DNA from: a virus
Reading direction: 5' to 3' (one strand)
IMG/VR virus record: IMGVR_UViG_3300049737_000387
Location: 1 to 22,082 of that record
Length of the DNA: 22,082 nt
Shown here: in pieces, positions 8,954 through 22,082 of the stretch
Position numbering within the stretch: position 1 is the first letter of the stretch
How the letters are laid out: each line of letters starts with the position of its first letter
Position numbers and translations under genes: made by a program
Notes under the pieces: model-generated
What the model was told of the DNA's origin: nothing
Database searches by the model: none
Seen by the model: the letters and a program-made list of their open reading frames with translations, nothing else

Positions 8954-9181
8954 TTAATCGTCCACTGCATCAACCGACTCAATATCGCACACCGGCACTT
9001 CATGCTCACCACCAATCATGTACCAGTGCATTAACTGTCCATGATATTCGGGATGTGCAACGTATTGTGTAGTATACTCACGTTCACCACAATACAACAA
9101 CTCACTCTCAGGAATACAATGCTCTTTCAACATTGCTTGCAGTTGCATATGCTGCAATTCTACTTTTGATGGTACTTTCAT
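8954..9181 (-). CDS. Unknown small protein (75 aa)
   Basis: The ATG overlaps the stop of the oxygenase gene by four bases (ATGA), which supports this start and suggests co-translation. The sequence has an N-terminal helix (KVELQHMQLQAMLKEH), then CGEREYTTQYVAHPEYHG, MHWYMIGGEHE and an acidic tail ending VDAVDD. The several His, Cys and acidic residues could bind metal but no known motif is complete. No membrane or export signal is seen. It may act with the oxygenase upstream, judged only from coupling. Confidence 0.65.
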   Translation of the reverse strand: MKVPSKVELQHMQLQAMLKEHCIPESELLYCGEREYTTQYVAHPEYHGQLMHWYMIGGEHEVPVCDIESVDAVDD

Positions 9182-9831
9182 TTAAATAATGGTCCCCATG
9201 CCCATGCTACTAATACTTTTCTAGTTCCAGATAAAACTTGATTTACACAATGATTCATTATTGAAGGAAATACAATGACATCACCTTTTTCAAACGTGAG
9301 GGATTGGTATTCAATGTTTCCTTTACGTAAACATTGAAATTGAAACTCTCCTCCCTCATATTCATCAGAATTACTAAGCATAATTGTCATTGAAAGTTTA
9401 CGACAGATTCTACTATCAGGAATTATCAATTCATCACTATGCCAATCATAATGACCACCAAGCACCCCATCTTGATCTTCAGGTGTCGCATTGTATTTGG
9501 TATATTGTATATCTTCAATTTGATTCAAATCAAAACGCCAATCTGGATCATTGTTAGCACTTTGAAATTGCATCATAATATATTTCTTGACAGATTCATC
9601 TTCCACCCAGGCATGTTGTGATAATCTATAATTCTTATCTAATGTGTCATCTACACCAAATACACTATCTTCCCACTTTAAATCAAGTTTATCAATATAT
9701 TCAACTATCTTATCTAATTGATCAATAGGAATTGCAGCTCTTTTGAACTTAAAGAACTGATCATTATTATAATCTACAATTTTCCCAGTATCACTAATAA
9801 TCTTAGTGCCTTTTGTTCCTTGGTTTGTCAT
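9178..9831 (-). CDS. Prolyl-4-hydroxylase-like 2OG-Fe(II) oxygenase (217 aa)
   Basis: The C-terminal half is a clear 2-oxoglutarate/Fe(II) dioxygenase core of the prolyl-4-hydroxylase/PKHD type. GGHYDWHSDE supplies H131 and D133, FPSIMNHCV supplies H194, and GTRKVLVAWAWGP supplies the 2-oxoglutarate-binding R204. YEGGEFQF and KGDVIVFPS are the usual beta strands between them. All metal and co-substrate residues are present, so it is probably active. It couples decarboxylation of 2-oxoglutarate to hydroxylation of a protein or other substrate. Length is normal for the family. It has its own early-type promoter, and its stop overlaps the next start (ATGA). The substrate is unknown; marine phages commonly carry such genes. 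Confidence 0.85.
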   Translation of the reverse strand: MTNQGTKGTKIISDTGKIVDYNNDQFFKFKRAAIPIDQLDKIVEYIDKLDLKWEDSVFGVDDTLDKNYRLSQHAWVEDESVKKYIMMQFQSANNDPDWRFDLNQIEDIQYTKYNATPEDQDGVLGGHYDWHSDELIIPDSRICRKLSMTIMLSNSDEYEGGEFQFQCLRKGNIEYQSLTFEKGDVIVFPSIMNHCVNQVLSGTRKVLVAWAWGPLFK

Positions 9832-9851: not shown

Positions 9852-9880
9852 AATATATCATATGTTTATGATAGTGTCAA
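9852..9880 (-). promoter_or_regulatory. Strong sigma-70-type promoter before the 217-aa oxygenase
   Basis: The minus strand has TTGACA (9880-9875), a 17-base spacer and TATATT (9857-9852), about 20 bases before the ATG at 9831. The -35 box contains the TGA stop of the preceding gene. An inverted repeat TATCAT/ATGATA spans the spacer and -10 region and could be an operator. This fits a cyanobacterial RNA polymerase early promoter and marks the boundary with the structural block. Confidence 0.75.
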
Positions 9881-10221
9881 CCGAGATCTACGTTTTTCCA
9901 TGTAAAATCACCATCTAAACCAATTACATGACACTCCCAGTAATAGTTTTCGTCAGGACAATCTTCCTTAGAAGGAAACCATGCTGTAGCATTAGCAATT
10001 GCTTGATCTGGATCTGAAAATACAATCATATCCCATGTTCCAAGAGTCTTCATTGCATCCAATACTTCATCTTCAGCGAACTCAGTATACCATGTCCACA
10101 CCTCTGCTTTCTTTGCATCAGTTGCAGACTTAATTTTGTCATTTCTAAAATATACTACACATTTATTATTATTTTGGCAGTATGATTCAACCAAATCCCA
10201 TTCGTTAATTACTTCAATCAT
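9877..10221 (-). CDS. Unknown acidic protein (114 aa), last gene of the structural block
   Basis: I do not recognise this family. The protein starts MIEVINEWDLVESYC, contains KCVVYFRND, and is rich in Trp (WTWYTEF, GTWDMIVF, ATAWFP, YYWECHV) and acidic residues. It probably has a compact alpha/beta fold without membrane segments or an export signal. Its ATG lies inside the end of the 298-aa gene (8-base overlap), so the two are probably coupled and it may act in tail assembly. Its TGA stop lies within the -35 box of the next promoter, which makes this the last gene of the late unit. Function cannot be assigned. Confidence 0.7.
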   Translation of the reverse strand: MIEVINEWDLVESYCQNNNKCVVYFRNDKIKSATDAKKAEVWTWYTEFAEDEVLDAMKTLGTWDMIVFSDPDQAIANATAWFPSKEDCPDENYYWECHVIGLDGDFTWKNVDLG

Positions 10222-11110
10222 TTCCCATTTCCTCTACTTTTTTGATTAAACCATCCAAATAACTAGTTACTTGAGTTTTTTGATCTTCTGTCCATTCTGC
10301 TGGTATTACGTCAGTAGGTGGTTCATATACTATTCCAGACACTTTTAGTGCATCAAGGAATGATTTAAAGAATAAATTTTCCGTAATACTTTTAGTAATC
10401 AAATACGATGAGATCTTTTCTTTAAACGTAACTAGGTAATGAGATGCCATAGGCAAGAATTGATCCTCTGTTGCCAAATAAGTTGCTTCTGCATTCTTTT
10501 CTAAGTAGATAGATTTAAAATATCTAGGACTCATTGGAAATTTAACATCTATAGCATCAGTGGTTACTACATTATCAGGAAGATTTCTAAGTGCTTGTCT
10601 ATATGTTTTATACATTACCTTATCATCATCGGAATAAGGTGAATCTTCAACAAATACATGGTCAGTTTCATCAAGTAAGAAATTACGTGCTAATCTTACT
10701 GTTAACCAACTAACTGAAGATGTTTGGGCATATATTTTAGCAAATTCACTCTCATATTCTTGAGTCGCAAGAGAATCAATTAAGAAAAATGTGTCTTTAA
10801 AAGTCTCGTATAAAGATGATGCAGATTCATCTAACTGCTCCATTTCATAGTCAACCCATTTATATTCACCTGTTTTAAAATTTTTGGTATACTTTCGTCT
10901 TTGAGCAATATATGTATTATTACTATACCAAGCAAATAAAACTAACTTATCCTTATCAGTATCCCATGTGGGATATAAAGCAGGAACAATAACATCTGCC
11001 CAATGAGTATCGGGGATTTGTTTCTCTACGTTTCTATATCGTACAGTTTTTTTAATAGAGTTCACTTCCAGGAGCAACTCCGGAACTGATGAATTACTAG
11101 AAATAGACAT
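10214..11110 (-). CDS. Putative tail-fibre/adhesin assembly chaperone-like protein (298 aa)
   Basis: Residues about 143-190 read ARNFLLDETDHVFVEDSP, then KTYRQALRNLPDNV. This closely follows the pattern of phage tail-fibre assembly chaperones (Phage_tail_APC family: R..LL..TDW....D, then YRQALRDLP). Those proteins help fold or trimerise fibre tips. The segment before it is acidic and aromatic-rich, and the C-terminus contains a second helical segment. Total length is longer than typical single-domain chaperones, so it may also be a structural cap. It starts 27 bases after the Gly-rich adhesin gene, the place where T-even phages often encode an adhesin partner, and overlaps the next gene by eight bases. 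The motif is seen; the role is inferred from family and position. Confidence 0.6.
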   Translation of the reverse strand: MSISSNSSVPELLLEVNSIKKTVRYRNVEKQIPDTHWADVIVPALYPTWDTDKDKLVLFAWYSNNTYIAQRRKYTKNFKTGEYKWVDYEMEQLDESASSLYETFKDTFFLIDSLATQEYESEFAKIYAQTSSVSWLTVRLARNFLLDETDHVFVEDSPYSDDDKVMYKTYRQALRNLPDNVVTTDAIDVKFPMSPRYFKSIYLEKNAEATYLATEDQFLPMASHYLVTFKEKISSYLITKSITENLFFKSFLDALKVSGIVYEPPTDVIPAEWTEDQKTQVTSYLDGLIKKVEEMGND

Positions 11111-11134
11111 ATCTTTAATATAGGTTCCCAGGTG

Positions 11135-11142
11135 TATTTAGA
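11135..11142 (-). promoter_or_regulatory. Possible T4-type late promoter (TCTAAATA)
   Basis: The minus strand reads TCTAAATAC across the stop codon of the 1254-aa gene. This differs by one base from the T4 late promoter core TATAAATA. It lies about 25 bases before the ATG of the 298-aa gene, a usable distance. An 8-base match can occur by chance in AT-rich DNA, so support is modest. Confidence 0.3.
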
Positions 11143-14100
11143 ATGCTTTGATTAGATACTTGCAAAGATGATACGGTTCAAGCACAGGTTTAGGATAATC
11201 AGGATCAATTGTTGCTGTCGGTAAGATTGGATTCTTAGAATTTAATGTAAATTTAGCATCAAGTCCTGTTGCACCTGTTGTGTAAATGCTGCTCTCTCTA
11301 CCTTCAACTGTATATGATAATTTATCTGCAGATTTTGGAATAGCACCGTCTGCAGGTACAAATACAAGTTCAGTTATTTCATTATATTCATAGATGAAAT
11401 CACAAATACCATAGTGATCTGTATCACCAGAATTATCATTAGCAGATGAACCAGGATTTCTATCCTGCACAATTTTAAACCTTACATTTTCAGATTGTGC
11501 TGCTTCAGGTAATTCTATAGAATACCAATACCATTTAGTGTCTCCACTAGATCCATCATAACCAGTAGCAATTTCATTTGCAGTTGGAATAGGAACAATA
11601 ACGCCTAAGAAATTAGTAGCACCATTATAATTATCCGAAAGATCTTTATTAAAATATAATTTTAATTCATCTCCACCATGTTCCGGATTTTCACCACCAT
11701 TTGATCCATTACCACGAGCAACTTTGATTGTAAACCTACGGACATTTGTGCAATCGTGCTCTTTAAGTGTGATATATCTTTGATTAGCAGTACCACTAAG
11801 TTTAACATAATGTGTATATGCAGCAGGGACTACAGATGCCGCCAAGTCAACTCCAGTAACAGTTTTTGCATTTTGATCTACAGTTGCTGTTGCATATGCT
11901 TTTGTTCCTGCACCATGTTTGATACGAACTTCAGGAACTGCAGTATAGTTAGCTCCAGCAGAACCTAAAGTAATATCAGCAACAGCACCACCAGAAAGAC
12001 TAACTGTTGCAGTAGCACCAGTTCCACCGCCACCACCAACAATTTCTACTTCGGGGACTTGTGTTGTTGGTAGTTTAAATCCTCCGGCATTTCCTACCCC
12101 AGAACCAGATGTATAAATTTGTGATTTTGGATCAGCATCAATAATTAATTCACCGGGAACAACATTACTACTTCCACCCTGATATCCAGTAACAACACCA
12201 AAATTAACTGCTGCAAATCCTGCACCAGGACTACTTACACCACTTGGTCTACTACCAGCACTACCAACAGTAACAGTTGCATTACCAGCTTCTCCTAATT
12301 GACTCTTATCAATTAAACTATAAAGATATCCACCTGATCCACCGCCGCCGCCACCGTCAGTCCAATAACTATTATCAGATTCATATACCCATCTTACATA
12401 ACCACTTTGAGTATTAGATGAACTTTGACTAACTAATTGGAATATGTTGGTTTTATAGGCAGTCATACCACGACCACCACCTTTACCACCACCATGGGAA
12501 GCAGCACCACCACCGCCACCACCTTTACCGCCACCGTTAGCAGTGTATGAAGAAGTAGCGATACCGCCACCGCCACCGCCGCCTCCACCACCATTACATG
12601 CTGCATTCTTACCATTAGCACCACCGCCAGCAAATAGATTAGAGGTAGTTGCTAATGGACTATCACTGTTCCATCCAGGGGTATTGTTACCTGCACCTGG
12701 GTATCCTTCTACCTTCTGAGATCCATCATATCCTCCACCGCCGCCACCGCCACCAGCGCCAGCTATTATAGATCCTTGAGCATTTTTAACTAATGATCCA
12801 CCGCCACCACCTGCGCCATTTTGCCCATTTCCGTTTCTGTTACCGCCAGTTCCTCCATTAGATCCGGAAGCACCACTGCCACCACTTTGACTATTTGAAC
12901 CATTATTCCCAGTTTCATAAGTTCCTACAAATCCTCCAGTGGGATTTGCTACAGCAATACGAAGTACCGAACCAGGTCCACCAGATCCACCTGTTTTTCC
13001 AGGTCCACCATTACCACCTGGGTTTGCTTTATGACCTCCACGGCCACCTGCAATATAGAACTCAATTTTTGTAAAATTAGCACCAGTAAGACTAACACTG
13101 CCACTACCAGATTTATTTCCACTATCACCACTAGGTCCAGATTGACTTACATATTTGTGAATACCATCCGTACCATAATTTGCTGCTGCTGCACCCGTGC
13201 TAATACCACCTTTACCAGCTTGATTAGGATTATTAGGATAAGTAAATGCTGGAAATGGTCCACTACTGCCAGATGTACCAGCAGTACTTTTATTTTGTAG
13301 AGTAGATAGCGATGGACCTACAGTTCCTGAAATTACATTAGTTCCACCATTTCCACCAGTTGTACCAGAAGCACCCTTACCTCCGCCTGCTACGACTTTT
13401 AATGCAGAACCATTATCAATTTGGACTGTGGTATCTCCGCCATCTCCCCCAGCTGTAGATCCATCTGACCCACCACCGCCACCACCTGCAGCAATGATTA
13501 ACATAGTTTCCCAAGTTGTAGGGATAGTTAAAGTCTGTGTACCACCAGTATAATTATTTACAGAGGTATATTCTACAATAGGAACTCCACCAGTAAATAC
13601 AGTTCTTCCTCCAATAACAGAAGTAGATGATAATGTTTTAAATACTGTTGCAGGAATATAAGTTAATAATTCATAAGTTCCTGCTCCTTCATCACCTGAC
13701 GCCATATAATATTCATTATTTTCATATCCCCATTTTGTAGATCCAGTTCCTTCAGCACCTGCAGCATAATCAAAGATATCATATGTAGCAACAGTATTGG
13801 ATGTGAGTGGACTTTTTAATAACGCATGTGAGTGCTCAAAAGGTATGCCGCCAACAGGAAAAAATTGCTGTAGACCTTTATTTGTATTATCATATGCAGC
13901 AAGATATCTGTCGCCAGAAAATCCAGGAAGTGCTGCGATATCCTGAGCAGCTTCTGTATGATAAATGTAATGAGTGTGTTGTGGTACACCCTGAAGTCTT
14001 TTCTTAGTCATTGTAACATCAACGGTTTGTGTTCCAACAACTCTAGTAGAAACAGTATCAGTTACGTTATCGTATCCAACAGTAGTAATAGTTCCCAATG

Positions 14101-14902
14101 AAAAATATCCTTGCTGAGAATCTTTAGTAAATACCCAACTTCCACCAGTAAACTTTGCTCCAGCACCAAGAGTAATTAACCCAATAGTTGGTGATCCTGG
14201 TCCATATACATTACCATATCCAACAACTTTTCGTGCTTTTAAATCAGGAACTTTAAATGTTCCTAAATCAGATTCACCATAATAACTGAGAATATTTAAT
14301 GTGCTAATAGAAGTAATTTGTCCATTACTATCAAAGTTATACTTTAATTCTAATCCAGATCCACTACCAGAATTTTGTAAAGTAAATGATGGTGGATTTG
14401 CAGCATCATAACCAAAACCTAATTTAGTAGCAGTTGCTGTAAGTACTTTACCATTAGTTGCTACAACAATCGTTGCTTCTATTATTTCTAAATTGCCTGG
14501 GTTACTTGCATTATATCCTGGTGGGGGATCAAACTCTATAGTCATAGATTGATCTGTTGGATATCCAGAACCTCTTTTTTTTACTTTAATTCCAGGTCTA
14601 GACTCTCCACCATATTCATTTCCGATGACACCGTATAAAAGAGGGAAGTCTGAAATATTATATTCAGATCCATCACAATATAAGTATCCAGGATATTGAT
14701 ATTCTGGATTCTCTTCAGTTTTCGCATCTCCGGATTGTACTGTATATGGTATATTAACGTTATTTGGAATATACTCATTATCATAGACATTATCAATTGC
14801 TTTAAAAGAATTGATAATTGTTCCAATTTCCGTAGAATCACTCGCTTTATCGGAGTAATAAAGTTGCCTAGTATTTCTGTAATTAGGAGCTGAAGATGTC
14901 AT
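11138..14902 (-). CDS. Tail-collar protein with long glycine-rich adhesin-like region (1254 aa)
   Basis: Residues 72-101 (PGYLYCDG, ISDFPLLYGVIGNEYGG) and 213-227 (LGTFKVPDLKARKV) are the two halves of a tail-collar domain. About 110 residues with GSGY and GFGY beta-type repeats are inserted between them. HxH motifs follow (PQHTHYIYH, FEHSHALL). Residues about 472-858 are extremely glycine-rich, with runs of six to ten Gly separated by short variable loops, resembling the polyglycine adhesin tips of T-even gp38-type proteins. After that come more GA-rich beta repeats (GSAGANYTAVPEVRI) and a C-terminal domain ending YLIKAF. The gene is last in the collar trio and is followed by a chaperone-like gene. 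Collar and Gly-rich regions are seen directly. The host-recognition role is an inference from known Gly-rich adhesins. Confidence 0.8.
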   Translation of the reverse strand: MTSSAPNYRNTRQLYYSDKASDSTEIGTIINSFKAIDNVYDNEYIPNNVNIPYTVQSGDAKTEENPEYQYPGYLYCDGSEYNISDFPLLYGVIGNEYGGESRPGIKVKKRGSGYPTDQSMTIEFDPPPGYNASNPGNLEIIEATIVVATNGKVLTATATKLGFGYDAANPPSFTLQNSGSGSGLELKYNFDSNGQITSISTLNILSYYGESDLGTFKVPDLKARKVVGYGNVYGPGSPTIGLITLGAGAKFTGGSWVFTKDSQQGYFSLGTITTVGYDNVTDTVSTRVVGTQTVDVTMTKKRLQGVPQHTHYIYHTEAAQDIAALPGFSGDRYLAAYDNTNKGLQQFFPVGGIPFEHSHALLKSPLTSNTVATYDIFDYAAGAEGTGSTKWGYENNEYYMASGDEGAGTYELLTYIPATVFKTLSSTSVIGGRTVFTGGVPIVEYTSVNNYTGGTQTLTIPTTWETMLIIAAGGGGGGSDGSTAGGDGGDTTVQIDNGSALKVVAGGGKGASGTTGGNGGTNVISGTVGPSLSTLQNKSTAGTSGSSGPFPAFTYPNNPNQAGKGGISTGAAAANYGTDGIHKYVSQSGPSGDSGNKSGSGSVSLTGANFTKIEFYIAGGRGGHKANPGGNGGPGKTGGSGGPGSVLRIAVANPTGGFVGTYETGNNGSNSQSGGSGASGSNGGTGGNRNGNGQNGAGGGGGSLVKNAQGSIIAGAGGGGGGGGYDGSQKVEGYPGAGNNTPGWNSDSPLATTSNLFAGGGANGKNAACNGGGGGGGGGGIATSSYTANGGGKGGGGGGAASHGGGKGGGRGMTAYKTNIFQLVSQSSSNTQSGYVRWVYESDNSYWTDGGGGGGSGGYLYSLIDKSQLGEAGNATVTVGSAGSRPSGVSSPGAGFAAVNFGVVTGYQGGSSNVVPGELIIDADPKSQIYTSGSGVGNAGGFKLPTTQVPEVEIVGGGGGTGATATVSLSGGAVADITLGSAGANYTAVPEVRIKHGAGTKAYATATVDQNAKTVTGVDLAASVVPAAYTHYVKLSGTANQRYITLKEHDCTNVRRFTIKVARGNGSNGGENPEHGGDELKLYFNKDLSDNYNGATNFLGVIVPIPTANEIATGYDGSSGDTKWYWYSIELPEAAQSENVRFKIVQDRNPGSSANDNSGDTDHYGICDFIYEYNEITELVFVPADGAIPKSADKLSYTVEGRESSIYTTGATGLDAKFTLNSKNPILPTATIDPDYPKPVLEPYHLCKYLIKAF
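12329..13489 (-). repeat. Glycine-codon repeat tract inside the 1254-aa gene
   Basis: The plus strand shows repeated CCACC/CCGCC blocks that read as GGN glycine runs on the coding strand. The longest are near 12340, 12510, 12570, 12735 and 13475. The blocks are irregular in spacing and separated by unique coding sequence, so this is an intragenic low-complexity adhesin tract and neither CRISPR nor a satellite. Local GC content is clearly higher than in the flanking genes. Such tracts are prone to slippage and recombination, which could alter loop order. Confidence 0.85.
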
Positions 14903-14903
14903 T

Positions 14904-16331
14904 TTAAATTTTTATCAGATATTCTAATACAATAAATGGAGTTGCAACACTATCTACAGACGCAGAGTTATCTACAGACAAGTTTAATGTTGTAACTAGT
15001 GCATCAGGAGATAATTCTAACGCATCAGTGACTAATGCAAAATTATGAGCACCTTTGTCAAGATCTAACTTATGAAAGTGTTCTGTGGGATCACCATTCT
15101 GTTGATTTAATTCCTGAGATTCGGAAAAACTATTAAACAAAGAAGCGTAAACAAAGTTCTGCTGCGCTGATGCGCCTTGAGTATTTGTATTTAGAGGAAC
15201 TGCATCAACTAAGGATATATCTCTCCAGTCTTTTGGAGCAGTTCCAGTTGTATATGTTGCATTAACATCTTGAGAAGTATTTATTTTATTATTCATATCA
15301 TCTTGAAAACAAACTCCTAAAACAATTGAACCCGAATCACTATATGGTTCTAAATTATTTAATTGATAATTATTACTACTAATTGGATAATTATTCCATT
15401 TATCAGTCAAAAGACAGATATATCTCCATTGATCTTCTAGTATGGCTCCGGAGTTAAAGCAACCATTACTATATGCTGTAGGATCTCCAAAAATTCCTCC
15501 AAGCGCAACACCATCAAAGGAACCAAAGTAAAATTCATATCCACGAGCATATGAATTAGATGCCATTGCTCTGCATGGTGGTTGATTATTACCTGGAAAA
15601 TTAGATGCTCCATCCGCCTTCGTAGCATCTAACCAATCATCAATTGGTATGGTAGTTGCATTAAAGAATGATACTTGCCCAATGGCTTTAGCAGGTAATG
15701 CCGTTGTTGGTGCAGATGAATCAACTTCATTTGTGGATTTAATTCTAGTTCTAACACCATTAAAAAAGTGCATATGTCCATGCATAGCAACTTCACTAAC
15801 AGTTTCAGGATCCGTTCTTCTTCCAAATTGAGTTCCAATAGTCCACGATGGTCTACCTCTCATTTCAATTGTTTGAGATGAAACAACAAAAGTTCCAGAA
15901 TATGTTAAATTGATTGATAATCCAAGAGTTGATGTTGCTTCAATTCCTATACCAGAGCGATTAGTTTCGTTACCAGCTTGTGTTACTACACGAATTGATC
16001 TATATGAACCAGTATCTGCTCCACTAGTTGGTTTGGGATATTTAGATCCTAAATCGGGAACAACAAATTGTTCATCAGATATTACTTGGAGATTATCACC
16101 ATTTAAATCTCTTCTAATAAATTTACCTGTTGATCCAGATCCACATATAGCGGCTAATTGAGGATAATCTGCAACATTATATGCAGTTCCATCACATCTT
16201 AAATAACCAGAGGGTAAATCTCTCTTGTTTGAAGAACTATTAATATCCGGACTTATCTCAACAGGCCAAATAATTATTTGACCTGTTAAATTTCCATATT
16301 TAGATCTTTCTTTTGAGTAAGCTACTGCCAT
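14904..16331 (-). CDS. Tail-collar domain structural protein (475 aa)
   Basis: This is the second of three consecutive collar proteins. After GQIIIWPVEISPD come LPSGYLRCDGTAYN and VADYPQLAAICGSG, then a variable stretch and QFVVPDLGSKYP, the usual order of the tail-collar fold. Two HxH motifs are present: HGHMHFFNG in the middle and EHFHKLD about 60 residues from the end. The C-terminus reads PFIVLEYLIKI, close to the LIKAF endings of its neighbours, as is common in collar-domain proteins. The start codon overlaps the preceding stop (TAATG) and the next gene starts one base after this stop. No Shine-Dalgarno sequence is visible, so translation probably depends on coupling. It is likely a short-fibre or receptor-contact protein, with the host target unknown. 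Confidence 0.77.
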   Translation of the reverse strand: MAVAYSKERSKYGNLTGQIIIWPVEISPDINSSSNKRDLPSGYLRCDGTAYNVADYPQLAAICGSGSTGKFIRRDLNGDNLQVISDEQFVVPDLGSKYPKPTSGADTGSYRSIRVVTQAGNETNRSGIGIEATSTLGLSINLTYSGTFVVSSQTIEMRGRPSWTIGTQFGRRTDPETVSEVAMHGHMHFFNGVRTRIKSTNEVDSSAPTTALPAKAIGQVSFFNATTIPIDDWLDATKADGASNFPGNNQPPCRAMASNSYARGYEFYFGSFDGVALGGIFGDPTAYSNGCFNSGAILEDQWRYICLLTDKWNNYPISSNNYQLNNLEPYSDSGSIVLGVCFQDDMNNKINTSQDVNATYTTGTAPKDWRDISLVDAVPLNTNTQGASAQQNFVYASLFNSFSESQELNQQNGDPTEHFHKLDLDKGAHNFALVTDALELSPDALVTTLNLSVDNSASVDSVATPFIVLEYLIKI

Positions 16332-17974
16332 TAGAATGCTTTAATAAGAAAAATTATATTAATTGATGGTTGATCTGTATCAACTACTATATTTAGAGCG
16401 TCATCAAGATTATCTGGTGCAACAGATCCAATACTTATTTGATCTACATTATATGTAAATGGAGCATTTAATGATCCCCTTGACATTTGAATGTCAAATG
16501 TACCATGATTATGTGAAAGAAATGCTGCCTGATTAGGATCATTATTTCCAAAATTACTCATAGAAGTTGGCCATGTTCCTTCCCTAAAGAATATAGGACT
16601 AGAGGTTGCTCCTATTGCAGGCAGAGATATAGTGACAGTATATACATAATCAGCATCTGTTGTTCCTGCGGTTCTTTCAATAGAAGTAACATATGTTCCT
16701 TTTGCAAATGCAGCACCATCAAGCATTTGCCATGGGTGAATCTTATCATACTGATACCAGACCTTTACATTTGGTGCTGTTCCAGATGTATGTGTTGTTT
16801 TAATATCAGTTCCTGCAGGTAACTCAAATTCAGTAACTGATGGAGCAACAGTTACTGGATCTACGGTAAAAACAACTGCAGGGTTTTCTGGGTTATCTAC
16901 AATCTCTTCATAGATACCACTGCCATGTCCATAAAAATTTCTTCTATTTCCAAAGACTGTTGGTTTTGGAAACAATCCAGTCCATGCCATATTAGAATGA
17001 GTTTTTAGTGGTTCATATGGAAATTGATCTGTATATAGTGATCCAGAAAAATTAACATCCTGACTAATTGCTTGAGGACTATTTCTTGTAGCAGTACCAT
17101 CATGCCAATCAGGAGCAGGAACTTCAGACCAATAATCTTTTCCAGCATCACTCACAAAATTATGAAATCTATCCATGGTTGGAAGAGTTTGTTCATATGA
17201 TTCACTACCATAATATGCCATTAAGGTTTTACCAAATTGCCAGTTAGGTGCCACATCTACACTAGGTAAAATATCACACTGGTTGTTTTTAGACTGAATT
17301 ATACTACATGCTGGATGCTGGTTATTTCCACTAACTTCTACTTGAGACGATGTAAATACTTGAGGTCCGAAAAAACTAGCTTGAGCAGATTCAACACTTC
17401 CTGGGTGATTATGGGAAGGAGTATGATTAATACCCAGTTTTCTATTCAAAGTAGTAATAGATGTTTGGAATGTTGGGTCAGTTATCTGCATTTCAGTATA
17501 CTTACCCGTCAATGAAACCCCAGGTTCAAGTACAAAATCAATATCAGCAGCAGCAGAATATCCTGTTGGAATAACTGCCGTTGTACCAAATCCAACGATT
17601 AGATCAGAAATTTTATCACCAACACTATTATATTGAATATTTAATATATCACCTCCTCCTGCTTGATATTTTTCATCATTTAAGTATTCTGGTTCCAAAT
17701 CCATCATACATCTATTTGTTATATTTGGAAGAGTGAATGTATCACTAAGTTCATAATTAGGAAATTCACCTACAAAATTACCTCCATAAGTTGTACCCAA
17801 ATGAGCTGCCAATAATGGATAATCATTAGCAGAAACTTCTCTCCCATTACTAATTATCCATCCTCTAGGGATGTTATCAACAGAAAATCCTTCAAATCCA
17901 TTTCCGCTCCATGGCAAAATAGTGCCAATACGAGCGGTTTTCATTGTCTTAATTGAATTGTAGTATTGTGCCAT
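16331..17974 (-). CDS. Tail-collar domain structural protein (547 aa)
   Basis: The N-terminus carries a phage tail-collar domain (Pfam Tail collar family): GTILPWSG near residue 17, PRGWIISNG, then NDYPLLAAHLGTTYGG and the closing FTLPNITNR near residues 80-88. Such domains sit in short tail fibres and baseplate-tip proteins of T-even-like phages and face the host surface. Two HxH motifs follow (PSHNHPG near the first third, LSHNHGTF near the C-terminus). In T4 fibre tips comparable motifs coordinate iron. The C-terminus ends in IIFLIKAF, which matches the ending of the 1254-aa collar protein. The gene starts six bases after the giant fibre gene. Its stop shares one base with the next start (TAATG), so the three collar genes are probably co-translated. 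Collar identity is seen directly; the binding role is inferred. Confidence 0.8.
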   Translation of the reverse strand: MAQYYNSIKTMKTARIGTILPWSGNGFEGFSVDNIPRGWIISNGREVSANDYPLLAAHLGTTYGGNFVGEFPNYELSDTFTLPNITNRCMMDLEPEYLNDEKYQAGGGDILNIQYNSVGDKISDLIVGFGTTAVIPTGYSAAADIDFVLEPGVSLTGKYTEMQITDPTFQTSITTLNRKLGINHTPSHNHPGSVESAQASFFGPQVFTSSQVEVSGNNQHPACSIIQSKNNQCDILPSVDVAPNWQFGKTLMAYYGSESYEQTLPTMDRFHNFVSDAGKDYWSEVPAPDWHDGTATRNSPQAISQDVNFSGSLYTDQFPYEPLKTHSNMAWTGLFPKPTVFGNRRNFYGHGSGIYEEIVDNPENPAVVFTVDPVTVAPSVTEFELPAGTDIKTTHTSGTAPNVKVWYQYDKIHPWQMLDGAAFAKGTYVTSIERTAGTTDADYVYTVTISLPAIGATSSPIFFREGTWPTSMSNFGNNDPNQAAFLSHNHGTFDIQMSRGSLNAPFTYNVDQISIGSVAPDNLDDALNIVVDTDQPSINIIFLIKAF

Positions 17975-17980
17975 GTCTTA

Positions 17981-20900
17981 TCAGAGTTCTGTTAACCACC
18001 AACCACGTAGGTTAGCAGGAATTGATGATGCGTTAGGATCTCCAGCTGCATCGGAAGTACCGACATATACAAGACCAAACGATGCATTTCTCGTTTGTAC
18101 AATCAATTCGCCGCTATCCCATGCTGATGCTAGAGTACCACTACCTGCATCAATCTTACTTCCAGTTATATCTCCCTGCATTGCAACCGCTTGGTTATTA
18201 ACTTTAAGTGCTCTCAATACAAGGTTTGTATTATATGTAAGGTTTCCACTAACTTCAACGAATCTAATCATGTCGCCAGTTTCAGCATAATCTGGTAAGT
18301 AAAGAACCATATTGGTTCCTGCAGGATTATTTAAGAGGTAATTATTATTAGGTTGCAATGGTGCTGCCTGAGTTTGACCAACCCCAGTTAAGGATTGCTC
18401 AACATAAGTATATCTACGACCACCATTTCTGGTGAAGTAACGACTAATTCCAAAAGCATCAATTGAACAATCTTGATAGATCTTAAAGTCTCTTGGACCT
18501 TCAGTTCCATTTACTCCGGCACCACCGAGGTTATCAATATGTAAAATTGCAGTTCCAGAATCTCCAGCATCAGTTGCAACTACTTTACCTTTAATGTAAA
18601 GTTGTTCACCCATCTCAAGATTACCAGTGAGATGATTTGCTCGGAAAGTAACTTCGGTAGTACAAATACCAGTGGATTCACAATCTTTAGCACGAAGTTG
18701 TAAAAGTCCATCAAATGTTGCTTGACCATCTAGATATAGACCACCAAATCCAGTTTTAGGATCAAGAACTGAACCATCATTAGGGTGATCATCATCATTA
18801 GCAATGGACATGACGAGAGTTTCTTTATCAGAACCATACATTCTGAATTCACCACTGTAAATTTCTACAGCATCATTAATAGTTGTAGTTCCTCCACCAA
18901 AGTATGCAGTAAAGTCTCCTGTTGTTGCTTGTGCAGTAGTCTGAATTGACTTGGCAAGACGAACTCCATAAGAAGAAACTTGACCATCAATACTATCTGC
19001 CCAGAACCATTCTTGATCTGTATTTTTACGATTGGTATCTAGAGTATTACCAGATACAATTCTAAAGAAATGATCTGTATCCAATTTATTAGCAATTAAT
19101 CTAGAATCAACTAACTTAACTCTAATTTTATCTGCATTAAGATTAGGAGCTTCAACTGCTGTTCTACTTGCAGCAACAGCAATATCTTCATCAAGTGTTG
19201 TTGTAAATGTGTACTTAGAAAGTTTTACGACAACAGCACCAGCAGTCCAGTTCTGTTTACCAGATCCTTCAGCACCTCTACCTCCGATTGGATAAGTTGA
19301 TGCAGGATATTCTGCATTGTAGATAGTTGGTAGATATGCTTGTGTTCCACTAATATATGGATCATCCGTGACTAAAATTATTTCACCTTGTGTTGATCCA
19401 CTATAAATGAGGACCAAATCACCTTTAGAGAATCCAGTTAAATCATCAATAGGAATATTCCAATCATCTGTAGTAAATCCAACTGAAACAGCTGAAATTG
19501 GACCATCTTGTGGATTAAGAGTTTCTTTTCTAAATCTGTATGAATGTACTACCGAAGTTTTGGTATGTGCAATACCAGTTGATCCCCAATATTGACCGAC
19601 GCCAAATGTAGTTCCTCTTACACTTCCAACAGTCATGTCACCATTACACATGTTGACATCCCATACAGGACCAGAAGTATTGCTGATAGTAAGATGATTA
19701 TCTAAAGAAGGATCCGGACTTGGATATGCTCCAGTACTATCTCCACAAACTCCATTTAAACTAAGAGTTCCGTTAATAGTGGTTTTATTAGAATCAATGA
19801 ATACATTACCAGTTACAGAATTAATTTCAAATACGGTTGATTCTGTAGAAGTATCACATCCATTCTTAACTCTAAATGATTTGGCAACTTGATCAAGTAA
19901 GGTCTTAACTTTAAATATTTCACCTGTATCATCAACACCATCACCAGAAGGAGTGCCATCATCGCGAGAAATAATAACATAGTCTCCAATACTGATGTCT
20001 CCACCAAATTGTGCTAGGTAAATATCTTCTTCAGTTCCAGAGTTGTCAAGATTGGTGGTAATCCAAGTAGATTCAAACTGAACAGTACATTTGTAGATTG
20101 CAGCAGTATCGTTATGATCAGATCTAATTTCAGTAAATGTTCCAAATGGAAGTCTCTCAACTATAAGATAATATGGAGCAACGTTGATTCTTGGTAAAGA
20201 AACGATTTTAACAAATTCGGGATGTTTATTACCTGTAATAGCAGTATCAACTAGAAGAATATCATTCTCGGTAAAATACTGAGCATCTTCAGCATCAACT
20301 GGTTTATTCTTAATTGGTAAGTAATACTGATTACCACTCAATGCAGAAAGAACTTGAGGTTCAACATTTGGAGTACCACCAATTGTAGTAATTTCATTCT
20401 GGAATACTGTACCACCCCAATCACCACTACCAGAAGTATCTACAGCATTGTATCTCGCATCGGATACAGCAACTCTAGCGACTGTAATAAGATCAACATT
20501 AGACTTGAATAGATTATTTCCGAGAATACCGCTGGTATGAGTAATCTTACTAGAACCAATTTGTCCTCTATCTGCTGTGAAAGAGTAAGATGCAAATCCA
20601 CCACACAGGGTCATATCAGAATTAAATCTAGCAGTAGAATCAACAATTAAATTGTTTCTAATTCTAGTACTTCCACCCTGACCACCGACTGTAATATCAG
20701 AAGCATTAGTTGCAAAATCAAGTTTTGACGTGCTAGAATTACCAGAGAAAAATTCTACAGTGCCTGCAGTAGAAGAAAGTTTAACCGTATCATCAAGACC
20801 TCTTCTTGTACCTAGTTGAATATCACCAGAAACTTTAAGAGCCTTTGTGTCAATTTGAGTAAACGATAAAGATTCGTTGTTGTTATAAGCACCACCGATA

Positions 20901-22082
20901 GTAATCTTAGAAATATTGCTATTAAGATCTGGTGTATTACCAATCCAAATGTTGCTATGCAGAGATTTATTACCAACATAAACATATTGATCTTGTGTTG
21001 TGGTGTTGAGTAGATTTAAAGTTTTTACAGAATTACCAACGTTAAGTGTGCCAGTAAAAGCAGTATCAGTGACTAGATTAAATGTACCACTTGTCTGAGA
21101 TGTTCTGATCTCAGCAGTTGTACCGTCGTTGCCATTGACTTCAATGTCATGCTCAAAACGAGCATCATCAGTAAATCTAGATGTACCATCAACAACCAGT
21201 GCTCTGTCTAGTTCAGCATTAGTTACATTAATACCAACACGACCATTATTTGTAGTTGCAACTCTAAGTGTTGCTTCATTTGCTGGTGTTGCACTGTCGC
21301 CACCAACTAGAAGTGCATAATCAGAAGTTGTTTCAGTTCTATTAGCGAACGCAGGATTACTTAGATAATCAGAAATTATCTTACCACTGATAAATGCATT
21401 ACCAACAACATCAAGGTTTGCACGAGGAGAAGTATCAACATCAACAAATGCAGTCATATATGCATCATGTGCAGATCTTGCGACTGTGTTAATACCAAGT
21501 TTGTATTGACCAATGTCACTGGTATCAGTTCTAATTGTTTCAGAACCAATAACTCCAAATTCTTTCCAAGAAGAATTAGAGAACTCTAATCTTACATCAT
21601 TTCCAAGTGCTACCTCACTAGACCAAAGTCTTGGATTGTCATTTGCAACGTTAGATCTGTTTTCAATAATAGCAATTTGACAAGTATTAGCACTGGCAGT
21701 AAATCCATTACCAATGATTTGCCAGAGACCATTAAATCCAGGGTCACTATAGTTAGAAATTCTGATCTGGGATCCGCTGGTAACACCAACTTGATCATTA
21801 GATAAGTTGTTACCCCAAGTAATGGTGATAACAGTGCTTCCATTCATCTGGAAGTTAAGGAGATTTGCATTAACAACTCGCGCAAAGAAGTTTGCGTAAA
21901 TCCATCCAAGAGACCCAGTACCACCAACTTCAGATCCTTTGAGAAGAATATCTCCAGATAATGGAACTTCAGACCCGTACAATACATTTTGGGTAGTATT
22001 AATTGCAGTTCCAAGACCTGTGCTATACACTGGACTTTGATTAGGTGTAATATTTGACCCAATGCTTCCAACTACATGATTT
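17981..22082 (-). CDS. Giant tail-fibre-like virion structural protein, 5' end outside window (partial)
   Basis: At least 1366 residues are encoded here and the frame is open to the right edge. The first possible start, a GTG at 22030, is not credible because 17 sense codons lie upstream of it (ending NQSPV). The protein is rich in Gly, Thr, Asn and Ser, with short alternating hydrophobic segments such as RALVVDGTSRF, GVGQYWGSTGIAHTKTS and LHIDNLGGAGVNGTEGPRD. This is the look of a trimeric beta-structured phage fibre. It has no tail-collar signature, membrane segment or enzyme motif. It ends in GWWLTEL, and six bases later the first of three collar genes starts, so it belongs to the same late structural block. 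Large fibres of this type are usual in marine T4-like cyanophages. The role as a distal fibre or baseplate-attached adhesin is inferred from composition and position; receptor specificity cannot be told. Confidence 0.75.
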   Translation of the reverse strand, partial: NHVVGSIGSNITPNQSPVYSTGLGTAINTTQNVLYGSEVPLSGDILLKGSEVGGTGSLGWIYANFFARVVNANLLNFQMNGSTVITITWGNNLSNDQVGVTSGSQIRISNYSDPGFNGLWQIIGNGFTASANTCQIAIIENRSNVANDNPRLWSSEVALGNDVRLEFSNSSWKEFGVIGSETIRTDTSDIGQYKLGINTVARSAHDAYMTAFVDVDTSPRANLDVVGNAFISGKIISDYLSNPAFANRTETTSDYALLVGGDSATPANEATLRVATTNNGRVGINVTNAELDRALVVDGTSRFTDDARFEHDIEVNGNDGTTAEIRTSQTSGTFNLVTDTAFTGTLNVGNSVKTLNLLNTTTQDQYVYVGNKSLHSNIWIGNTPDLNSNISKITIGGAYNNNESLSFTQIDTKALKVSGDIQLGTRRGLDDTVKLSSTAGTVEFFSGNSSTSKLDFATNASDITVGGQGGSTRIRNNLIVDSTARFNSDMTLCGGFASYSFTADRGQIGSSKITHTSGILGNNLFKSNVDLITVARVAVSDARYNAVDTSGSGDWGGTVFQNEITTIGGTPNVEPQVLSALSGNQYYLPIKNKPVDAEDAQYFTENDILLVDTAITGNKHPEFVKIVSLPRINVAPYYLIVERLPFGTFTEIRSDHNDTAAIYKCTVQFESTWITTNLDNSGTEEDIYLAQFGGDISIGDYVIISRDDGTPSGDGVDDTGEIFKVKTLLDQVAKSFRVKNGCDTSTESTVFEINSVTGNVFIDSNKTTINGTLSLNGVCGDSTGAYPSPDPSLDNHLTISNTSGPVWDVNMCNGDMTVGSVRGTTFGVGQYWGSTGIAHTKTSVVHSYRFRKETLNPQDGPISAVSVGFTTDDWNIPIDDLTGFSKGDLVLIYSGSTQGEIILVTDDPYISGTQAYLPTIYNAEYPASTYPIGGRGAEGSGKQNWTAGAVVVKLSKYTFTTTLDEDIAVAASRTAVEAPNLNADKIRVKLVDSRLIANKLDTDHFFRIVSGNTLDTNRKNTDQEWFWADSIDGQVSSYGVRLAKSIQTTAQATTGDFTAYFGGGTTTINDAVEIYSGEFRMYGSDKETLVMSIANDDDHPNDGSVLDPKTGFGGLYLDGQATFDGLLQLRAKDCESTGICTTEVTFRANHLTGNLEMGEQLYIKGKVVATDAGDSGTAILHIDNLGGAGVNGTEGPRDFKIYQDCSIDAFGISRYFTRNGGRRYTYVEQSLTGVGQTQAAPLQPNNNYLLNNPAGTNMVLYLPDYAETGDMIRFVEVSGNLTYNTNLVLRALKVNNQAVAMQGDITGSKIDAGSGTLASAWDSGELIVQTRNASFGLVYVGTSDAAGDPNASSIPANLRGWWLTEL

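Follow-up and report, generated by a model that had tools for sequence, protein, structure and literature searches.

A 22,082-nucleotide (nt) viral DNA record, IMG/VR IMGVR_UViG_3300049737_000387 (positions 1 to 22,082, the whole of which is referred to here as the window), represents part of the genome of a marine T4-like cyanomyovirus. On its minus strand it carries a fibre module in which a 1254-residue glycine-rich collar (short-tail-fibre-like) adhesin, P0004 (positions 11138-14902), is followed by a 298-residue tail-fibre chaperone, P0005 (10214-11110). The interpretation preferred overall, to which we assign a probability of about 0.75, is that P0004 is a collar fibre protein with an ALK-type receptor-binding insert and that P0005, encoded by the next gene, is its chaperone, the scaffold of the fibre being the likely client. 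The fibre/chaperone module is real and ordinary in kind, i.e. a variant of what the gp24-gp25 pair of the freshwater myocyanophage Pam3 already showed; what is noteworthy is the predicted nesting of the ALK-like domain, a description of which for T4-like cyanophages was not found in the literature searched.

An earlier note on this DNA, made from the sequence alone, had described a glycine-rich region of nearly 390 residues, directly followed by a chaperone gene and fused to a collar protein. P0004 does have a true Phage Tail Collar domain (PF07484; amino acids (aa) 71-103, positions 14594-14692; 41.6 bits against a cut-off of 24), and also matches phrog_30655, a virion structural protein (E 6.5e-220). 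The Gly-rich core, too, is present, covering aa 472-861 (12320-13489), with 127 glycines in 390 residues (32.6%) and Gly runs of 6-10; the Gly-rich region as considered below comprises aa 475-945 (12068-13480; 30% Gly), the Gly content of P0004 being 11.5% before aa 472 and 10.4% after aa 945. All 32 sequences compared have Cys-769 (12596-12598), a single cysteine located among the Gly runs. The adjacency described in the note is inexact, since 309 residues of P0004 that are not Gly-rich (aa 946-1254) and a 27-nt spacer intervene before the P0005 gene; likewise, the span given for the pair, 10214-13489, takes in P0005 and the portion of P0004 that begins with the Gly-rich core, but the P0004 gene reaches 14902.

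The fold of the adhesin was predicted using AlphaFold2 on 32 relatives, with solved structures being compared by Foldseek and VIA. Across aa 409-1180 the predicted local distance difference test score (pLDDT) is mostly 75-94, and among solved structures the fold is best matched by the ALK/LTK TNF-like/glycine-rich domain, along with reelin repeats. In VIA, P0004 aa 592-841 (12380-13129) align with ALK/LTK (7nx0_B) with Z 15.7 and a root mean square deviation (rmsd) of 3.5 over 185 residues, and in Foldseek the model matches 7lrz (ALK/LTK) with E 3e-5; for the reelin repeats the values are E 1e-4 in Foldseek and Z 15.5, rmsd 2.7, in VIA. The reelin alignment extends over model residues 360-1114, i.e. 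P0004 aa 419-1173, yet aligns only 145 residues, so the predicted jelly roll must be split and host the Gly-rich domain, with a first part at aa about 419-475 (13478-13648; approximate boundary) and a second at aa about 1041-1175 (11378-11782), the latter with a sub-threshold match to Reelin_subrepeat-B (15.8 bits). The Reelin Pfam matches, at 13-16 bits against a threshold of 27, count only jointly with the fold match. The prediction for the Gly-rich region, made with good confidence, is a TNF-like/ALK-type domain, present as an internal insertion in a reelin-like jelly roll.

Several results weigh against this interpretation. The overall predicted template modelling score of the P0004 model is low (0.37), and pLDDT is about 30 for the HxH region and the C terminus, i.e. 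these parts are not predicted. The record has no match to the Pfam family ALK_LTK_GRD (PF12810), and searching PDB sequences with either the adhesin or an adhesin profile turned up Gly-linker artefacts only; the location of P0004 in the virion rests indirectly on the 'virion structural protein' annotation of its relatives. Because composition filters may hide Gly-rich matches, the failure to match PF12810 lowers only the claim to family membership. The likeness to human ALK/LTK (7NX0, 7LRZ), which, unlike P0004, is a signalling receptor of animals, rests on the predicted fold, as no profile-level sequence relation is detectable with Pfam or the PDB; the 20% identity to ALK is inflated by glycine, so was not used as evidence. 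Recall of ALK by the structure-prediction network is unlikely, since the matched ALK structures were released in 2021 and postdate the entries used for its training.

It is very improbable that the Gly-rich stretch has no part in recognition and is just a linker of low complexity on which constraint is relaxed. Low complexity does go with a higher tolerance to change, but the Gly columns, the Gly runs, and Cys-769 are kept in relatives down to 40% identity, pLDDT is mostly 75-94, and the match with Z 15.7 is to a folded receptor domain.

The location of sequence variation is informative with respect to a possible recognition role. Between close relatives, the density of aa changes in the Gly-rich region is 3.4 times that in the remainder of P0004, with most of the changes at non-Gly positions. 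In the comparison with the closely related locus L013, the adhesin of which is 93% identical, aa 475-945, which make up 471 of 1195 residues, hold 56 of the 81 aa differences (Fisher p 3e-8), and a glycine of the window is replaced in only six of the 81. Variable runs are located at aa 526-542 (13277-13327), 578-612 (13067-13171), 647-664 (12911-12964), and 858-876 (12275-12331). Among all 32 sequences, non-Gly columns have a variability of 1.97 bits in the Gly-rich region compared with 1.43 elsewhere (p 2e-21), while the Gly columns of the region are conserved. The ratio of non-synonymous to synonymous substitution rates (dN/dS) with L013 is 1.31 in aa 475-945 and 0.07 in aa 1041-1254, where it ranges over 0.07-0.12 between close relatives. 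It should be weighed against a selective explanation that, set against the remainder of the gene, the dN/dS contrast reaches significance with L013 (p 0.03), but not with another relative, L011 (p 0.15), and that neutral drift of the loops could be the source of the excess. The pattern of variation agrees with a constant Gly lattice bearing variable tips, without proving selection.

The closest characterized system is that of Pam3, in which gp24, a TNF-like plus glycine-rich fibre, forms a 3:3 complex with its chaperone gp25 (PDB 7YPX; PMC9608196), and for which a likeness to ALK, a conserved Gly stem, and a variable tip were reported (PMC9608196). P0004 has the TNF-like plus glycine-rich domain and ALK-like fold in common with gp24, here as a predicted fold only, and resembles it in combining conserved glycines with variable segments; gp24, however, is a single, short fibre that carries a helical bundle at its N terminus, whereas the domain in the window is nested in the jelly roll of a 1254-residue collar protein. 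A Klebsiella phage fibre resembles gp24, and host-adaptive mutations occur in its glycine-rich domain (PMC12671077). In gp38 of T2, S16, and PP01, a Gly-rich lattice with variable recognition segments is found in another architecture (PMC12892980). Neither Pam3 gp24 nor S16 gp38 is among the 50 matches listed for the adhesin fold, which excludes nothing.

The earlier note had drawn an analogy with T-even phages, by which the Gly-rich part would be a gp38-like, polyglycine-II host-range adhesin and the 298-residue protein its dedicated chaperone. The Gly-rich stem with variable segments, as in the gp38 proteins of T2, S16, and PP01 (PMC12892980), the adjacency of adhesin and chaperone, and the variation within the Gly-rich region are all in accord with it. 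By contrast, T-even gp38 is a protein of its own at the tip of gp37, consisting of a β-helix and a polyglycine-II sandwich, whereas the Gly-rich domain in the window is internal to a collar protein, and the fold search puts ALK/LTK and reelin first. The chaperone, moreover, persists where the Gly-rich domain is absent and, as described below, has a partial correlation of only 0.03 with the Gly-rich part. No Pfam gp38 match was obtained for P0004 at E<=1, although composition filters act on Gly-rich sequence. The T-even analogy is thus close without being exact, the Gly-rich domain being modelled as a TNF-like/ALK-type insertion and not as a gp38 tip protein; in its strict form we regard it as improbable.

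With respect to the chaperone, the open reading frame of 298 residues with the motif ETDHVFVEDSP...YRQALRNLP reported earlier is confirmed at 10214-11110 on the minus strand. P0005 belongs to the Phage_tail_APC family (PF16778; 38.9 bits against a cut-off of 26.6; aa 137-195, positions 10526-10702) and matches phrog_4697, annotated as a tail assembly chaperone (E 2.6e-25). The solved Chromobacterium protein CV0426 (2kz6) is matched both by sequence, with a profile built from 26 chaperones (hmmsearch E 5e-9), and by fold, with aa 133-196 of the P0005 model (VIA Z 6.2, rmsd 2.8, 62 residues). The model, with a mean pLDDT of 71, has an N-terminal β domain (predicted for aa 10-94, positions 10829-11083) and a mainly helical rest. 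A similar layout, with N-terminal β and C-terminal helical domains and intermolecular action, is that of Pam3 gp25, though P0005, at 298 residues, has nearly double the length of gp25 (162 residues). Foldseek gave no significant match for the P0005 model, and VIA gave CV0426 for the motif region only, plus helical-bundle background, such that the N-terminal half is without a solved counterpart in these searches, which counts against the assigned role. Caudo_TAP, the Tfa/gp38-chaperone family, is absent from the Pfam matches of P0005 at E<=1, and neither Pam3 gp25 nor TfaMu is among the matches listed for its model, which excludes nothing. P0005 is probably a folding helper of P0004.

The pairing of adhesin and chaperone genes is conserved. 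The 60 loci with a complete adhesin comprise the window, two named phages, and others from IMG/VR, and 51 of them have at least 1 kb of downstream sequence; in all 51 the chaperone comes next after the adhesin, 43 times directly and eight times after one gene for a 2-oxoglutarate (2OG)-Fe(II) oxygenase. Apart from S-WAM2 and S-RSM4, which are counted in the 51 but had come from a search with the chaperone, the relatives were fetched with the adhesin alone. Related samples contributed some nearly duplicate loci, and when near-identical adhesins are discarded 37 are left. In Synechococcus phage S-WAM2, gp221-gp220 is an orthologous pair in the same gene order (adhesin about 41-42%, chaperone 44% identical). 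In Synechococcus phage S-RSM4, SRSM4_211 and SRSM4_209 are a Gly-rich collar protein and a homologous chaperone (28% identical), with a 2OG-Fe(II) oxygenase gene between the two and further ones following. The earlier proposal of a variable host-recognition module is consistent with this conserved neighbourhood and with the variation in the Gly-rich region; dedication of the chaperone to the variable part is not, as discussed below.

In phages S-H9-1 (L003) and S-MbCM7 (L008) the collar protein encoded ahead of the chaperone is short (about 370 and 581 residues, respectively) and lacks the Gly-rich domain, so the chaperone is not dedicated to the variable part. Outside a jelly-roll insert in the protein of S-MbCM7, which has the jelly roll without a Gly-rich domain, the two collar proteins are 68% identical; this insert matches the jelly-roll profile with E 7e-8 and occupies a different scaffold site from that in the window. 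From this comparison it can be inferred that the collar scaffold accepts different inserts while the chaperone stays, and, judged from sequence, the jelly-roll insert appears to be mobile between scaffold positions. Distance correlations by the mirror tree method agree, though with 26 related sequences and one control set they are weak evidence. As all module genes correlate at 0.84-0.98, specific co-evolution of chaperone and Gly-rich part cannot be claimed; when the upstream collar protein c1 and the small protein encoded downstream are controlled for, the chaperone tracks the N-terminal part of P0004 and the second upstream collar protein, c2, better than the Gly-rich part, the partial r with which is 0.03 once other genes are allowed for. 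The most likely client of the chaperone would be the shared collar scaffold, or its C terminus, with different inserts being tolerated.

It may be, however, that several of the collar proteins of the module (c1, c2, and P0004) are clients of the chaperone, the gene for which would merely follow that of the last. This is a strong rival, though we consider it the less likely reading. The three proteins have a collar start and related, LIKA-like ends in common, the collar proteins ahead of the chaperone differ greatly in make-up, and the partial correlation of the chaperone N-terminal domain is as high with c2 (0.63) as with the C-terminal part of P0004 (0.59). The limited weight of these correlations, noted above, applies here as well, and the usual client of known Tfa-type chaperones is the product of the gene just upstream, which here is P0004.

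With the scaffold of P0004 as the preferred client, the following mechanism can be proposed. P0004 would be a terminal collar-type fibre protein of the T4-like cyanophage baseplate, with a conserved scaffold comprising the collar domain, two His motifs, and a C-terminal region (aa 1190-1254, positions 11141-11335) that ends YLIKAF and is common to other collar proteins. The motifs, HxHxxxH (aa 309-315, positions 13958-13978), a probable metal site of the scaffold, and HxH (aa 357-359, positions 13826-13834), are both invariant in 32 of 32 relatives. The scaffold would bear the insert as a receptor-binding element, its reelin-like jelly roll hosting the ALK/LTK-type domain; conserved Gly-rich strands may form a rigid lattice from which the intervening variable, non-Gly segments bind the cyanobacterial surface. 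P0005 would enable the folding and trimerization of P0004, its N-terminal β domain gripping the fibre and its helical Phage_tail_APC domain oligomerizing, as in Pam3 gp25. Little is known about receptor-binding proteins in marine T4-like cyanophages, and P0004 is a concrete candidate: its collar scaffold is conserved and takes interchangeable inserts, among them an ALK-type TNF-like/Gly-rich domain like that solved in the Pam3 fibre, and it comes with a chaperone. The presence of the same pair in the S-WAM2 isolate makes tests of host recognition possible.

The order of the module on the minus strand is a long structural/short-tail-fibre protein (17981-22081, cut by the end of the window; phrog_4527, E 1e-186), c1 (547 residues, 16331-17974; Pfam Collar, phrog_4591), c2 (475 residues, 14904-16331; Pfam Collar), P0004, P0005, a conserved 114-residue protein (9877-10221), and a 2OG-Fe(II) oxygenase (9178-9831). 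The last is PKHD-hydroxylase-like (PF13640, 46.6 bits; PKHD hydroxylase, E 1.9e-6), and PKHD-like oxygenases cluster around the chaperone in the window and in L002, L003, L008, and L009. Five complete phages have 38 oxygenase matches between them, 12 of which are within 4 kb of the chaperone, compared with 1.6 expected for an even spread, an expectation that exaggerates the excess, given that these genomes have other clusters of 2OG-Fe(II) genes as well; S-WAM2, unlike the window, has no oxygenase match within 4 kb of its chaperone. Published proposals for the roles of phage 2OG-Fe(II) oxygenases are 2-oxoglutarate signalling and DNA repair (PMC3037559). That the adjoining enzymes hydroxylate the fibre or aid its maturation is a conjecture that we regard as doubtful; if true, cyanophage receptor-binding proteins would be post-translationally modified by phage enzymes encoded alongside them, and the recurrence of these neighbours makes fibre modification a testable question. 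A mutated 2OG gene of S-TIM4 (PMC6224464), considered as a possible neighbour of this module, was rejected, being located near gp5.

A nucleotide search of the window against phage records gave no match. The gene for the 114-residue protein, of unassigned role, overlaps that of P0005 by 8 nt, and all 22 loci whose downstream sequence is long enough have a relative of it. In c2, aa 241-360 have, in the pair with L013, dS 0.19 and dN 0.23, compared with dS 0.03-0.05 alongside; this segment is probably a recombined tip, even more variable. In the adhesins of L018, L020, L025, L033, L034, and L036, which are about 1550 residues long, a repeat-like stretch of 277 residues is inserted after aa 394, immediately ahead of the jelly roll. 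The adhesin of L040 (L040:7841-12601) has about 307 extra residues after the equivalent of aa 117, including a serine-hydrolase-like GHSQGG motif; with a score of 12.6 bits to Hydrolase_4, below the cut-off, this insert is possibly an esterase within a fibre.

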